Assembly: GCA_004377355.1 (NCBI GenBank)
Contig: SOIB01000127.1
Coordinates: forward strand, 1-48,947
Origin: Candidatus Stahliibacteriota bacterium
GTDB taxonomy: Bacteria; Hydrothermota; UBA3072
Reading direction: 5' to 3'
DNA: 48,947 bases
Below are positions 19,655 through 34,571 of the stretch, piece by piece; the first letter of the stretch is position 1, and each line of letters begins with the position of its first letter. The notes below the pieces were generated by a model. That model did not search any database. It was not told the origin of the DNA and worked only from the letters and a program-made list of their open reading frames with translations. The position numbers and the translations under genes are program-made.

Positions 19655-21112
19655 TTATTCATGTTCTGGTAGGTTCCTCATTCCATAAAGGTGAGCTTCT
19701 TCGGTCATCAGTTTCGTTAACTCCTTTTTTGTATCATCTTGTAATCTTGAGGAAACATAATTCTTTATTATTCTTTCCACCTCACCATGTGCCCTTTCTA
19801 AAAGAGTTATACTCCCTTCCTCTTGCCATCTTGTTCTACTTGCCCTGTCAATAACTACTCCAGGGAAATAGAATTCTTCATTTAGATAACGACGTGTATG
19901 CTCTGATATAAGTAGGTGTTGTTCCTTTAGAAGTTCCTGGAATCTTGGGAGCGAGGGAAAATCCTCTTTAGGCTCAATACCTTTTAACAAATGAATCGTC
20001 ATTCCACAGATTTCATTATCTAAAACAAGCTTTTCCAGACTCTGGCAGCTTTCAAAATCAAGCATTCCTGGTCCAGAAATGTTGTTTATTCCACAAAGAG
20101 CAGCAAGGGTTGCCCCCACTCCCGATTCAAGCCCTGCTTGAGCATCAAGCTGTTTTGAATCACTTAAGGATATATACCCCTGAGTTGGCATACCAAGGTA
20201 TTTCCCAATCTCATTATATGCGCAATCTATCATCATTGTTTCTACAGCACCCATTGGAGTCGTTTCATATCGGACATCAAATATGGCTGGCGAACCACCA
20301 TAAAGGATTGGTGTTCCTGGATTTGTAAACTGGCTAATTACAACACCACTCAGGGTTTCGGCTGTATGTTGAATCAATGTTCCAACAAGGGTAACAGGTG
20401 CCATAAATCCCGATAATGGCATGGAAACAAACTCCACTGGAATTGAAAAGTTGGCACAGTCTACAACATTTTGGGATGTTACATTACTCCATTTTATAGG
20501 TGAAGTTGGACAGCATGAGAATATTGTAAGTGGTTTTGATTTAAGTTCCTCTTTTGACCCTCGAATTATAACCTGAAACTCTTTCATAATATTGAATGCT
20601 TCCATGGTAAACGTACCGGTGACTACAGGTTTCTCACAGTAAAGAAAGCTTAAGTAAAGTCGATAACTATCTGAAATCTTCTCACAGACATCAGCTGGAA
20701 TAAATGCTGTACTCTGAGAAGCAATGTTATCAAGCTGACTTACAACTTTCACATACCTTACATAATCTGTTGTTTTTGGCTTACGAATCTCATTTGTTTC
20801 ATAATCCAGGATATTTAATGCAGCTGAACCGGGTGTAAAATATACATTATAATCTGAAAAATGATGTGTTTCATTACCAAGAACATCATAGAGTTTAAAG
20901 GATTTAGGAACCGCCTTTAATGCGCTTTCAATAATCTCATCTGTAAGGAAAACGTGGTACCTATCCATCTCAACCTTTGCTCCATGCTCTCCTAGCATGA
21001 AAAGGATATCCTTGTTGTGGATTTCCACACCAAGTTTACAAAGAATTTCCCTTGCTTCTCCTACTATCTTCTCTATAAGTTCATCGCTCAAGAATCTTAA
21101 TACCGGTCTCAT
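19655..21112 (-). CDS. MttB-family (trimethylamine/quaternary-amine:corrinoid) methyltransferase, non-pyrrolysine type
   Basis: 485 aa; SDSKQLDAQAGLESGVGATLAALCGINNISGPGMLDFESCQSLEKLVLDNEICGM and LSGFMAPVTLVGTLIQHTAETLSGVVISQ; no internal amber codon. Confidence 0.9.
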   Translation of the reverse strand: MRPVLRFLSDELIEKIVGEAREILCKLGVEIHNKDILFMLGEHGAKVEMDRYHVFLTDEIIESALKAVPKSFKLYDVLGNETHHFSDYNVYFTPGSAALNILDYETNEIRKPKTTDYVRYVKVVSQLDNIASQSTAFIPADVCEKISDSYRLYLSFLYCEKPVVTGTFTMEAFNIMKEFQVIIRGSKEELKSKPLTIFSCCPTSPIKWSNVTSQNVVDCANFSIPVEFVSMPLSGFMAPVTLVGTLIQHTAETLSGVVISQFTNPGTPILYGGSPAIFDVRYETTPMGAVETMMIDCAYNEIGKYLGMPTQGYISLSDSKQLDAQAGLESGVGATLAALCGINNISGPGMLDFESCQSLEKLVLDNEICGMTIHLLKGIEPKEDFPSLPRFQELLKEQHLLISEHTRRYLNEEFYFPGVVIDRASRTRWQEEGSITLLERAHGEVERIIKNYVSSRLQDDTKKELTKLMTEEAHLYGMRNLPEHE

Positions 21113-28763: not shown

Positions 28764-29300
28764 TTATTCTTTGAACAGTTCGCCTACTTTCTTACCAGAT
28801 TTTGAGTTCTCTTGCTCCTCCCTTGCTTTCTTCTCTTTCATTTCATATGCCTTTATTCTCTCCATCTCATCCAACATTTTTAATTGCGAAGAGAGAAAGC
28901 CTCTAAGTTGAGCTATAAAGCCATCTCTTTGACTCTTTAAAGCACTTATCTGATTTCTTAGTTCTCGGAGCTGGGCTTGAACATCTTCCAAAATCTCGCT
29001 TGCTTCAATTTTAGCCTTTTTTACTATCATTTCTGCTTCTTTACGTGCATTCCTTCTTATTTCATCTGTAGTTTTTTGTGCAGATGTTAGTGTGTCCTGA
29101 AGGGTTTTCTCCATTCTCTTATAATCTTCAATCTTCAGGTCTAATTCCCGAAGTTGCTCCTGCATACTTTTGTTCTCTCGAACTAGATTTTCCATCTCCT
29201 TTGCTGTTATCTCAAGAAAAATATCTACTTCATTCTTATCATAACCTTTAAATGATTTCTTAAATTCTTGCTTCCTTATATCTAATGGTGTAATTTTCAT
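28764..29300 (-). CDS. divIVA: DivIVA-domain protein
   Basis: MKITPLDIRKQEFKKSFKGYDKNEVDIFLE plus coiled coil. Start at 29300 chosen for GGAGGTAATTATG; the ORF track extends to 29333. Confidence 0.88.
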   Translation of the reverse strand: MKITPLDIRKQEFKKSFKGYDKNEVDIFLEITAKEMENLVRENKSMQEQLRELDLKIEDYKRMEKTLQDTLTSAQKTTDEIRRNARKEAEMIVKKAKIEASEILEDVQAQLRELRNQISALKSQRDGFIAQLRGFLSSQLKMLDEMERIKAYEMKEKKAREEQENSKSGKKVGELFKE

Positions 29301-29332
29301 AATTACCTCCAGGGCTTTGGAAATTTTATTCA

Positions 29333-29682
29333 TGGTGGAGGCGGCGGGAATCGAACCCGCGTCCGAAATGGTAGTTTAGAAGCGTCTACATGCTTAGTGG
29401 CTGTTTTTTTATCGCCTTTCCCACACCCAACCACAGGATTAGGTAAGGCTATGCCAGTTATTTTTCATCCACAATCCCCTGGCAATGATTGTAGCTTATT
29501 CTCCTTCTATGACACCCTTCGAGAAAGTAGGAGAAGAACTTTCTCGAGAGCGAGCAGCTAAGTTAAGCTGCCAGGGCGTAATTAACGTTGCCATTTATGT
29601 TTATTACCACAGTTTTCCGAGTTATGGTGGCTCGGCATGCAACTTCCAATCAATTCCATCTCGTCGAAACCTTTTCGCCCCC
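29333..29682 (-). ncRNA. ssrA: transfer-messenger RNA (tmRNA)
   Basis: 5' GGGGGCGAAAAGGTTTCGACGAGAT and 3' GGTTCGATTCCCGCCGCCTCCACCA; 7-bp acceptor stem GGGGGCG/CGCCTCC (one G-U). Tag reading frame 29592..29563: GGC AAC GTT AAT TAC GCC CTG GCA GCT TAA = GNVNYALAA*, preceded by UA at -5/-4. Confidence 0.97.
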
Positions 29683-30165: not shown

Positions 30166-31800
30166 ATGGGAAATGCCATTTATAAAATAGAAAAACCGTC
30201 AAATGAACCTATTTATCCCTATGGTCCCGGAAGTTTAGAGAAAAAGGAATTAAGAGAAAAAATAAAAGAACTTAAAGGCAAAGAGCTCGAGATTCCACTT
30301 ATTATAGGTGGTGAAGAGATAATGACAGGAGATATTGGAGAATGTGTTATACCACATGAAAACGATAAGATTTTGGGCAAGTATCACAAGGCTGGAAAGG
30401 ATGAAGTAGAGATGGCGATAGAAGCAGCTCTAAAAGCAGGGAAAAAGTGGTCAGACACACCATGGGAGCATCGTGCTTCAATCTTCAAGAGAGCAGCTGA
30501 ACTCCTATCAGGACCTTGGAGAAGCACCGTAAATGCAGCCTGTATGCTATGTCAGAGTAAAACTGTGTTCCAGGCAGAGATTGATTCTGCATGTGAGTTG
30601 ATAGACTTCTTCCGCTTCAACACTTATTATATGACAGAGATATATAAAGAGCAGCCAGATTCAACTGGGACATCTTATAATAGATTGGAATACAGACCTC
30701 TTGAAGGATTTGTCTTTGCTGTGACACCATTTAACTTTGCATCAATAGCAGGAAACCTCCCTTCTGCACCAGCTATTATGGGTAGTGTATCTGTCTGGAA
30801 ACCTGCATCCTCTGCAGTTTATACTGCATACTGGCTAATGAAACTGTTCCAGGAAGCAGGGGTTCCTGATGGAGTAATAAATTTCGTTCCAGGTTCAGGA
30901 GGAAATGTTGGTCAGCCTGCCCTCGCCAATGCAAACCTTGCCGGTGTACACTTCACTGGCTCTACTGCTGTATTCCAGCATATGTGGAAAACAATTGGAG
31001 ATAACATCATGAATTATAAGACCTATCCAAGAATTGTTGGAGAAACAGGTGGAAAAAACTTTGTCTTTGTCCATGAAAGCGCTAATATGAAAGAAGTCCT
31101 TACAGCACTTGTAAGAGGAGCTTTTGAATATCAGGGACAGAAATGTTCCGCTGCTTCACGTGCATATATTCCTCTTAGTATGTGGAAAGGAGGATTAAAA
31201 GAGGAACTCATCAACACGACAGAGGACATAAAAATGGGGTCCCCAGAAGATTTCAGAAACTTTCTGGCTGCAGTGATAGATAAGGCTGCTTTCAATACAA
31301 TAACAAAATACATAGATGAAGCGAAAAAATCTTCTGATGCTGAAATAATTGCTGGTGGAGAATACGATGATTCAAAAGGATTTTTTGTAAGACCTACAAT
31401 AATTCTCACCAAAGACCCAAAATACAAGACAATGAAAGAGGAGATATTTGGTCCAGTCCTCACATTATATGTATATAAAGATAATGAATATGAAGAAACA
31501 CTCAAAATCTGTGATGAGACTTCTCCATACGCTCTAACCGGTTCTATATTCGCAAAAGACAGAGATGCTATTATAAAGGCTGCAAAAGTTCTCACTCATG
31601 CTGCCGGTAATTTCTATATTAATGATAAACCAACAGGTGCAGTGGTTGGACAACAACCATTTGGAGGAAGTCGCGCATCAGGAACTAACGATAAAGCAGG
31701 GAGTAAATTAAATCTCATTAGATGGGTTTCTCCAAGAACAATAAAAGAAAACCTTTCTCCTCCTACAGACTATCGATATCTATTTATGCAGGAAAAGTAA
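30166..31800 (+). CDS. 1-pyrroline-5-carboxylate dehydrogenase (ALDH4A1-like)
   Basis: IQAEIDSACELIDFFRFN-like (VFQAEIDSACELIDFFRFN), GETGGKNFVFVHESAN, FEYQGQKCSAASRAYIP (catalytic Cys), GNFYINDKPTGAVVGQQPFGGSRASGTNDKAG; SD GGAGGT at 30157. Confidence 0.95.
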   Translation: MGNAIYKIEKPSNEPIYPYGPGSLEKKELREKIKELKGKELEIPLIIGGEEIMTGDIGECVIPHENDKILGKYHKAGKDEVEMAIEAALKAGKKWSDTPWEHRASIFKRAAELLSGPWRSTVNAACMLCQSKTVFQAEIDSACELIDFFRFNTYYMTEIYKEQPDSTGTSYNRLEYRPLEGFVFAVTPFNFASIAGNLPSAPAIMGSVSVWKPASSAVYTAYWLMKLFQEAGVPDGVINFVPGSGGNVGQPALANANLAGVHFTGSTAVFQHMWKTIGDNIMNYKTYPRIVGETGGKNFVFVHESANMKEVLTALVRGAFEYQGQKCSAASRAYIPLSMWKGGLKEELINTTEDIKMGSPEDFRNFLAAVIDKAAFNTITKYIDEAKKSSDAEIIAGGEYDDSKGFFVRPTIILTKDPKYKTMKEEIFGPVLTLYVYKDNEYEETLKICDETSPYALTGSIFAKDRDAIIKAAKVLTHAAGNFYINDKPTGAVVGQQPFGGSRASGTNDKAGSKLNLIRWVSPRTIKENLSPPTDYRYLFMQEK

Positions 31801-31801
31801 G

Positions 31802-33013
31802 ATGAAAGAAGCAACAGTTGGCACATTAGGTGAAGAAAAAGTCGTAGACTGTAATATACACCTCAAGATAAAACGCTCTGGTGGTATCGATCTTGAACTT
31901 AAATCAAAAGTCGATGTTACATATGGTAAATCCATCCGTCAACTTGTTCATAAGGGATTATCATTCTTTGGAATAGATAATGCCAAAATAGTGATTGATG
32001 ATTATGGAGCATATCCTTTTGTCATGCAGGCAAGAATTGAAACTGTTGTAAAAAGGGCTCTTCCAGATGTGGATAATGAATTCCTTCCGGAGTTTTCGGA
32101 TAAATGTTTATACAAATCATCAATGGATAGATTTCGAAGGACTCGCTTATATCTACCAGGGAGTTTTCCAAAGTTTATGATAAATGCAGGGATACATAAT
32201 CCTGATGGAATCATACTGGATTTAGAGGATTCCGTTGCTCCAACAGAGAAAGATGCTGCAAGAGCACTGGTGCGGAATGCTCTTCGCGTTGTAAACTTTT
32301 ACAATGCAGAAAGAATGGTAAGAATAAATCAACTTCCTATGGGGCTTATTGACCTCGAATGGGTAATACCACACAACACTCATCTAATACTCATTCCTAA
32401 ATGTGAATCTACCGGTACAGTCCTAAAGGTTGATGAAAAAATAGAGGAAATAAAGAAAAAAAATAATATTGAGCAGGATATATTCTTAATGCCAATTATA
32501 GAGAGCGCATTGGGTGTAATCAAGGCATATGAGATAGCTTCGATATCTTCCAATGTAGTTGCTCTTGCTATTGGTCTTGAAGACTATACTGCTGATATAG
32601 GTACCGAGCGATCAATTGAAGGTAAAGAAAGTTTCCTCGCTCGTTCGGTTATCGTAAATGCAGCACGTGCAGCAGGTGTACAGCCCATTGATACTGTATT
32701 CTCGGATGTTGATGATACAGAAGGATTACGCAAGAGCACTCTTGAAGCAAAATCCCTTGGCTTTGAGGGAAAAGGTTGTATTCACCCTCGTCAAATTGAG
32801 ATAATACACGATGCATTCGCGCCAAAAGAAGAAGAAATTGAAAAGGCAAAAAAGATAGTCAAAGCTTTTGAAAAAGCAAAAGCTCGTGGTCTCTCTGTAG
32901 TTTCACTCGGAAGCAAAATGATAGATCCTCCGGTTGTAAAACGAGCAGAGAAAACAGTCCAGCTTGCAATGAAGATAGGTAAACTGGATGAGAATTGGAG
33001 GGATAATGAGTGA
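31802..33013 (+). CDS. fusion of citrate lyase acyl-carrier-like domain (CitD) and citrate lyase beta subunit (CitE)
   Basis: N-terminus VGTLGEEKVVDCNIHLKIKRSGGIDLELKSKVDVTYGKSIRQLVHKGLSFFGIDNAKIVIDDYGAYPFVMQARIETVVKRA resembles CitD; then CitE motifs RRTRLYLPGSFPKFMINAG, DGIILDLEDSVAPTEKDAAR, VALAIGLEDYTADIG, GCIHPRQIEIIHDAF. Confidence 0.88.
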   Translation: MKEATVGTLGEEKVVDCNIHLKIKRSGGIDLELKSKVDVTYGKSIRQLVHKGLSFFGIDNAKIVIDDYGAYPFVMQARIETVVKRALPDVDNEFLPEFSDKCLYKSSMDRFRRTRLYLPGSFPKFMINAGIHNPDGIILDLEDSVAPTEKDAARALVRNALRVVNFYNAERMVRINQLPMGLIDLEWVIPHNTHLILIPKCESTGTVLKVDEKIEEIKKKNNIEQDIFLMPIIESALGVIKAYEIASISSNVVALAIGLEDYTADIGTERSIEGKESFLARSVIVNAARAAGVQPIDTVFSDVDDTEGLRKSTLEAKSLGFEGKGCIHPRQIEIIHDAFAPKEEEIEKAKKIVKAFEKAKARGLSVVSLGSKMIDPPVVKRAEKTVQLAMKIGKLDENWRDNE

Positions 33014-34571
33014 GGATTACAGGTTAAAGAAAAATGCAGTGGGTAGATTGGTTCCTACAATAATAAATGGAGAAAATGCTATTCCCTATCAGGGGGTAGG
33101 TAAATATAAACCAAAAGGTAGGAAAACTATCCCTCCCATTTCAACATGTGCAGATTATCCTGATGATGGGAATAAGGTAGTAAAGAACTTAAAAACTGCA
33201 CTACAAGCAGCTGGAATAAAAGACGGAATGACTATCTCAACCCACCATCACTTCAGAAATGGAGATTATGTAGCAAATGCTATCTTTGACGCAACAGCCA
33301 ATATAGGAGTAAAAGACCTCCGGTGGTTTCCTTCAGCCTCATTCCCATGCCATGCACCCATAATAGAGCATTTAAAATCCGGTGTGATTCATCATATAGA
33401 AGGTAGTCTGAATGGACCCTTAGGAGAATTCGCTTCCAAAGGCAGTATGAAGGGTATGGGGGTTCTACGTTCCCATGGTGGTCGATATCAGGCTGTGCAG
33501 GATGGAGAAGTCCACATAGATATTGCTGTAATTGCAGCTCCAACTGCAGACCCCTTTGGTAATGCAAATGGTCTTTATGGAGAATCAGCATGTGGATTAC
33601 TTGGTTTTGCACTGGTTGATTCACAATATGCAGATCAGGTTATCATAGTAACTGATAATCTAATAGAATTTCCCTGCTATCCCTGGCAGATACAGGGTAA
33701 CTACGTGGATTATGTAGTGATCATGGATAAGATAGGAGATCCTGAGAAAATAGTATCAGGGACAACAATGATAACAAGAAGTCCTGATAGACAGCGAATT
33801 GCAAGGTTGGCAGCGCAGTTCTTAAGAGATACAGGTATAATGAAAGAAGGATTCTCCTTCCAGGCAGGAGCTGGTGGCACATCACTTGCCTTTGTTGATT
33901 ACCTTTCAAACTATATGAGGGAAGCAGGGATAACCGCACAATTTGTCAGGGGTGGTAGTACACAATACCTTGTTGATATGCTTGAAGAAGGCCTAACCAA
34001 TTACATATTGGATGGACAGACTTTTGACCTCAAAGGCGTCCAGTCAATGAGGGATAATCCAAACCATGCTGATACCAGCCCCTTCACGAGTTATAATTAT
34101 CACGGGAAAGGTATGTTTGCCACGATGGTGGATGCAGCTATCCTGGGTGCAACAGAGGTAGACATCAATTTCAACGGAAATGTTAATACCCATTCAGATG
34201 GGCTGTTACTACACGGTATTGGAGGCTGGCAGAATACAATATTCTCTAAATGCACTATACTCACTATTCCCACCTTCAGGAACAGGATTCCTATCTTAGT
34301 GGATGAAGTTACAACCCTCACGGGACCCGGTGAACTCATCGATGTTGTTGTTACCGAGCGGGGAATTGCGATAAATCCAAGAAGGAAGGACCTACAAAAT
34401 GCTATAAAGGGTTCAGACCTCCCAATCCGTTCCATAGAAGAGTTAAAAGAGGAAGCAGAGGATATATGTGGTGGTAAACCAAATAAGCCAAAACTGGGAG
34501 ATAGAATTATCGCTGCAATCAAATGGGTTGATGGGACAGTGATTGATGCAGTAAGGCAAGTCCTGGATTAA
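33006..34571 (+). CDS. citF: citrate lyase alpha subunit (CitF)-like CoA transferase
   Basis: ISTHHHFRNGDYVANAIFD, GVLRSHGGRYQAVQDGEVHIDIAVIAAPTADPFGNANG, GAGGTSLAF, GQTFDLKGVQSMRDNPNH. Start at 33006 has SD GGAGGG; the track ORF begins at 32988. Confidence 0.93.
   Translation: MSEDYRLKKNAVGRLVPTIINGENAIPYQGVGKYKPKGRKTIPPISTCADYPDDGNKVVKNLKTALQAAGIKDGMTISTHHHFRNGDYVANAIFDATANIGVKDLRWFPSASFPCHAPIIEHLKSGVIHHIEGSLNGPLGEFASKGSMKGMGVLRSHGGRYQAVQDGEVHIDIAVIAAPTADPFGNANGLYGESACGLLGFALVDSQYADQVIIVTDNLIEFPCYPWQIQGNYVDYVVIMDKIGDPEKIVSGTTMITRSPDRQRIARLAAQFLRDTGIMKEGFSFQAGAGGTSLAFVDYLSNYMREAGITAQFVRGGSTQYLVDMLEEGLTNYILDGQTFDLKGVQSMRDNPNHADTSPFTSYNYHGKGMFATMVDAAILGATEVDINFNGNVNTHSDGLLLHGIGGWQNTIFSKCTILTIPTFRNRIPILVDEVTTLTGPGELIDVVVTERGIAINPRRKDLQNAIKGSDLPIRSIEELKEEAEDICGGKPNKPKLGDRIIAAIKWVDGTVIDAVRQVLD

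Follow-up and report, generated by a model that had tools for sequence, protein, structure and literature searches.

A CitD–CitE fusion without the prosthetic-group serine as a proposed subunit of a free-CoA homocitrate lyase in lysine breakdown

Related lyases and the CitD–CitE locus

Citrate lyase of Klebsiella and E. coli (CitDEF, EC 4.1.3.6) is among the systems most like the locus described here, sharing with it the CitD fold, CitE and CitF homologues, the gene order D-E-F and the CitE catalytic residues. The citramalate lyase of Clostridium is a complex of the same type that acts on another substrate and is annotated as citrate lyase (PMC4682846). It belongs to the methylaspartate pathway and has CitC, CitX and CitG, and its substrate and pathway differ from those we propose for the fusion. 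Malyl-CoA lyase, CLYBL and citramalyl-CoA lyase use a CitE-like barrel with an IHPxQ motif on free CoA thioesters and are the top PDB matches, but they have neither a CitD domain nor a CitF partner. In malonate decarboxylase, MdcC resembles the N-terminal domain of the fusion in fold and bears its arm on Ser25, at the tip of a loop between two antiparallel strands (PMC5534430), whereas this loop is free of serine in our protein. Lysine synthesis by the fungal aminoadipate pathway employs homoaconitase together with a second aconitase, homoisocitrate dehydrogenase (HICDH) and saccharopine enzymes (PMC3556520); the route proposed below would run in reverse, with a lyase at its end instead of homocitrate synthase at its start.

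The window, i.e. the whole stretch of 48,947 nucleotides analysed here, corresponds to contig C145 in an assembly of 1.81 Mb and 95.1% completeness. Three co-directional genes at 30166-34571 encode an aldehyde dehydrogenase, a CitD–CitE fusion and CitF:

30166..31800 (+), aldehyde dehydrogenase of the P5C-dehydrogenase type (TIGR01236, 787 bits, cut-off 614), 1 nt upstream of the fusion gene
31802..33013 (+), CitD–CitE fusion, proposed acyl-CoA lyase subunit, 403 aa (PF06857 and PF03328)
31805..32059 (+), CitD/MdcC-like ACP domain, residues 2-86 (PF06857; nearest PDB fold MdcC 5vit_C)
31823..31849 (+), loop T-L-G-E-E-K-V-V-D, residues 8-16, without serine, at the prosthetic-group serine site of CitD/MdcC (alignments, AlphaFold2 model)
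32129..32986 (+), CitE (HpcH/HpaI, TIM-barrel) lyase domain, residues 110-395, with R174, E234, D261, D375 and H328 (IHPRQ) conserved
32988..34571 (+), CitF-like acyl/CoA-transferase of 527 aa, whose gene shares 26 nt with that of the fusion (PF04223, 474 bits)

Within the single open reading frame, PF06857 (CitD/MdcC-type ACP) covers residues 2-86 (56.3 bits against a cut-off of 25.1), and PF03328 (CitE) covers residues 113-329 (172 bits). These profile searches bear out the fusion that a first-pass annotation had recognised by eye, and its placement of the ACP-like part at 31802-32060 agrees with the domain found. No other PF06857 match occurs in the window's genome, and the fusion is intact in about 30 relatives. 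In the AlphaFold2 model (pLDDT 92.8 for the whole chain, 93.2 for the ACP-like domain alone), residues 8-16 form the loop joining the first two strands (E3-7 and E17-23). The closest PDB fold of the ACP-like domain is MdcC (5vit_C, E 3e-4, TM 0.67), while a search with the whole chain gives malyl-CoA lyase and CLYBL, both free-CoA enzymes. Decay of the ACP-like domain is ruled out by the intact frames, the high model confidence and purifying selection (dN/dS 0.07-0.33, all below 0.35, as rough values with dS near saturation).

In the CitE half, R174, E234, D261 and D375 are kept in all 67 fusions and all 8 canonical CitEs compared; they correspond to the catalytic Arg, the Mg ligands Glu and Asp, and the lid Asp of CitE-like enzymes (PMC3832036). 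The IHPxQ motif containing H328, common to free-CoA enzymes, is likewise present in 67/67 fusions, at a position where canonical CitE mostly has Asn (6/8).

The CitF partner has PDB matches to 2hj0/1xr4. A CitF gene is found in 87 of 93 fusion loci and lies within 150 nt of the fusion in 80 of 89 same-strand pairs. These partner CitFs branch apart from canonical CitF (support 99), and six differences are fixed between 84/84 partner and 8/8 canonical sequences (S117A, R142N, L389T, G402H, G409H and A410G). The six sites point to a CitF whose function may have shifted. Among the hallmarks of citrate lyase, the window genes thus retain the CitE catalytic residues and the CitF alpha subunit (PF04223, TIGR01584), though the latter in a separate, supported clade. 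They differ from citrate lyase in the fusion of CitD to CitE, in the missing arm serine of GTLES(S/G)D, in the missing CitX/CitG/CitC set and in their linkage to lysine genes.

Attachment site and arm-attaching enzymes

All seven canonical CitDs examined carry the motif ES(S/G)D, with serine two residues before the aspartate (D-2); the E. coli CitD reference sequence was verified against its database record (100%). The attachment region of the window protein reads VGTLGEEKVVDC, in which D-2 is Val14, D-1 is Val15, and no serine is found in residues 1-25. The prosthetic-group serine is indeed missing from the loop TLGEEKVVD, as the first-pass annotation had stated. Its alignment was anchored on GTL, about three residues off, and the invariant Asp16 is the better anchor; the conclusion stands with either.

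The loss extends beyond the window protein. Among 95 aligned fusion rows, three near-duplicates included, D-2 is occupied by Arg in 80, by Lys in 7 and by Ser in only 1, so the serine at the canonical position is missing throughout the fusion family, which had not been foreseen. Serine occupies D-1 in 85 of the 95 rows, with R-S-D as the commonest motif. This serine is gone too in the window protein and in two genomes of the same family (VVD, RVD and NLD). Other members without it are G131 and G141 (TAAD, RAD), a Calditrichaeota member (SNND) and divergent WOR-3 groups (KQD, KAD). On the CitE tree, the D-1 pattern needs four changes, three of them within the core clade, i.e. about three independent losses.

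A further genome of the window's family, G129, encodes an 88-aa stand-alone CitD-like protein (L053, 10197-10460, -; PF06857, 75 bits) whose loop GQEDKGD has no serine. Its gene overlaps a CitE gene, which is followed by CitF; on its sequence, this protein is a case of serine loss without fusion.

Neither CitX nor CitG is found in 40 genomes of the window's phylum (the window's own and 39 relatives), and profile matches to CitC are absent from the window's genome. Candidate CitC genes in the relatives were rejected: their matches are weak (at most 28 bits), mostly cover the first 60-100 model positions and lie in frames of 161-197 aa, which look like phosphopantetheine adenylyltransferase rather than CitC. 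The pattern holds in other phyla: among 50 genomes with the fusion, 48 have it as their only PF06857 protein and have neither CitX nor CitG. The remaining two (G158 and G195) possess a second, stand-alone CitD, with the motifs AGTFESSD and AGSFESSD, accompanied by CitE, CitF and a fused CitX-CitG. The presence of CitX/CitG thus matches that of a stand-alone CitD exactly over the 50 genomes (Fisher p = 0.0008). Many of these genomes are incomplete drafts, and it is not credible that CitX and CitG dropped from 48 assemblies by chance. Matches to CitX and CitG within one frame of about 465 aa, hence a CitX-CitG fusion, are observed at L158 (10370-11755) and L159 (10996-12393), in two Bacteroidetes with canonical citrate lyase.

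A fusion complex without a covalent arm is therefore well supported. Because both the attachment serine and the arm-attaching enzymes have been lost, the window lyase very probably works with free CoA, for which characterised CitE-like enzymes provide a precedent (PMC3832036). The first-pass annotation had offered two explanations for the missing serine. Loss of the covalent cofactor with use of free acyl-CoA gains support from the lack of CitX, CitG and CitC in the window's genome and from the IHPxQ motif; use of another attachment residue is unlikely, since the attaching enzymes are missing.

Gene neighbourhood and a proposed route of lysine breakdown

After CitF, the most frequent neighbours in the fusion loci are genes for aconitase-family proteins (32), HD-domain proteins (30), isopropylmalate/homoisocitrate dehydrogenase-like (HICDH-like) proteins (28) and PrpD-like proteins (13). 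By TIGR00139 (844 bits, cut-off 530), one of the neighbouring aconitase-family genes encodes a homoaconitase. The linked dehydrogenase has homoisocitrate dehydrogenase as its best models, yet it scores below cut-off. Two isomerising enzymes are often present in the clusters; in fungi, homocitrate isomerisation takes two aconitases (PMC3556520). In the Cloacimonadota loci L063, L071 and L096, the gene immediately upstream of the fusion encodes lysine-ketoglutarate reductase (LKR), and in two of these loci it is preceded by saccharopine dehydrogenase. The Carboxylicivirga locus L195 contains a co-directional series of genes for CitDE, CitF, HICDH-like dehydrogenase, HD-domain protein, two aconitase-family proteins, L-piperidine-6-carboxylate dehydrogenase (NF050084, 801 bits, cut-off 730), LKR and saccharopine dehydrogenase. 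This genome also has a separate canonical citDEF-XG with the motif AGSFESSD. These four loci hence tie the fusion to genes of homoaconitase, HICDH and the saccharopine pathway, and 28-32 loci tie it to HICDH-like or aconitase-family genes. The small HD-domain protein (about 185 aa, PF01966; L195, 11554-12105, -) is a recurrent neighbour of the homoaconitase-like and HICDH-like genes.

Since the gene context points to homocitrate and lysine rather than citrate, a turn that the first-pass annotation had not anticipated, we consider it probable that the fusion and CitF form a CoA-dependent homocitrate lyase in lysine breakdown. From sequence comparison we infer free-CoA use, homocitrate as the substrate and the cleavage direction; the label ‘citrate lyase’ is doubtful. 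The complex would be of the citrate-lyase type minus its covalent arm. CitF would move CoA from acetyl-CoA onto the substrate acid, homocitrate, and the CitE half would cleave homocitryl-CoA into 2-oxoglutarate and acetyl-CoA, which is thereby regenerated. The CitD-like domain would be retained as a structural or docking module. In the proposed route, lysine would be converted via saccharopine and aminoadipate semialdehyde to aminoadipate and 2-oxoadipate. Reductive carboxylation of 2-oxoadipate would then yield homoisocitrate, which would be isomerised to homocitrate and finally cleaved into acetate and 2-oxoglutarate. With one NAD(P)H consumed by LKR, one gained by saccharopine dehydrogenase, one gained by the semialdehyde dehydrogenase and one consumed by HICDH in reverse, the net reaction would be redox neutral:

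Lys + 2-oxoglutarate + CO2 + H2O -> 2 Glu + acetate

Candidates for several of these steps are encoded in the window's genome. LKR and saccharopine dehydrogenase genes are adjacent on contig C128, and an HICDH-like gene on C206 is up to 74% identical to the clustered copies. The aldehyde dehydrogenase beside the fusion keeps its position in two other genomes of the window's family and could take the alpha-aminoadipate-semialdehyde step, although its profile says P5C dehydrogenase. With the lyase itself, these are the steps found. A dedicated homoaconitase is not found in this genome, whose one aconitase-family large subunit is of the TCA type and adjoins NADP-isocitrate dehydrogenase. G125 has no aconitase-family match at all, and G128 has one cluster-type aconitase. 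Homocitrate isomerisation is thus unaccounted for in the window's genome and in G125. Within the phylum, LKR is found in 19/24 genomes with the fusion and 9/24 without it (one-sided p = 0.004, for hand-picked genomes and without correction for kinship); it is missing from 5/24 fusion-bearing genomes of the phylum and from 11/32 elsewhere.

The fusion family is spread over at least a dozen phyla. The balance tilts toward a widespread, unnamed, arm-free homocitrate lyase that would use free CoA and close a CO2-consuming, redox-neutral reversed aminoadipate route in many anaerobic bacteria. The terms ‘homocitrate lyase’ and ‘homocitryl-CoA’ are not used in 5.39 million open papers, a set outside which most subscription journals lie, and nothing relevant to the CitD–CitE fusion itself was found in the open literature; the novelty of the pathway is provisional. 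If true, it would be a new way of breaking down lysine that fixes one CO2 and gives glutamate and acetate, and an acyl-carrier enzyme could shed its covalent arm while retaining the carrier domain as a scaffold. Standard profiles score the gene pair as citrate lyase, a label with which carbon-flow models of uncultured anaerobes would go astray.

Alternative readings and further loci

The complex might be a genuine citrate lyase working with free CoA, cleaving to acetate and oxaloacetate a citrate formed from 2-oxoglutarate by reverse isocitrate dehydrogenase and aconitase. The window CitF still scores 512 bits with TIGR01584, the citrate lyase CitF equivalog, just over the cut-off of 501.5, which is a counterpoint to homocitrate. 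No citrate synthase is found in the window's genome, where NADP-isocitrate dehydrogenase lies beside aconitase. We nevertheless regard this reading as unlikely, given the clusters with homoaconitase, HICDH-like dehydrogenase, LKR, saccharopine dehydrogenase and piperidine-6-carboxylate dehydrogenase, the separate canonical citrate lyase in two fusion genomes and the six fixed CitF differences. Furthermore, the HICDH-like dehydrogenase shares only about 31% identity with the true isocitrate dehydrogenase of the window's genome.

It is quite improbable that the complex operates in reverse and, as part of the aminoadipate route to lysine, joins acetyl-CoA and 2-oxoglutarate into homocitrate, even though fungi use homoaconitase, HICDH and saccharopine enzymes for making lysine (PMC3556520). 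The L-piperidine-6-carboxylate dehydrogenase of the Carboxylicivirga cluster is oxidative, the LKR is nearest to the animal catabolic AASS, and the scanned clusters show no aminoadipate reductase. As with citrate lyase, the equilibrium of such lyases lies on the side of cleavage.

Very improbable indeed is an arm that is still covalent, attached by some undescribed transferase to the D-1 serine in most members or to another residue in the window protein: the R-S-D serine that most members retain is modifiable in principle, but the window's family lacks it and it was lost about three times, CitX and CitG for making or attaching an arm are missing, and G129 has a serine-less stand-alone CitD with CitE and CitF.

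Two further assignments were set aside. Proline or glutamate breakdown, considered because of the P5C-dehydrogenase-type neighbour, was downgraded, as this neighbour occurs only in the window's family and at one locus in Bacteroidetes, while lysine genes recur. Against a citramalate lyase, genes of the methylaspartate pathway are not seen near the fusion, and the known operons of that lyase have CitC, CitX and CitG (PMC4682846).

Elsewhere in the window, a gene of the trimethylamine methyltransferase (MTTB, PF06253) family at 19655-21112 (-) is stop-free through 485 aa, and a DivIVA-domain protein (PF05103, 131 bits) is encoded at 28764-29333 (-). In G004, genes for CitF and butyrate kinase come after a divergent fusion with the motif SKQD (L050, 6349-7407, -), and the lyase of this WOR-3 subgroup may serve another pathway. 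Groups f5 and f10, the divergent ones of WOR-3, one of which has butyrate kinase as a neighbour, may differ in function. In the Bacteroidales loci L074, L088, L095, L108, L112 and L114, the fusion follows mmdA-like, OadB-like and biotin carrier genes of the methylmalonyl-CoA decarboxylase/Na+ pump type, hinting that its product is coupled to propionate formation or sodium pumping there.
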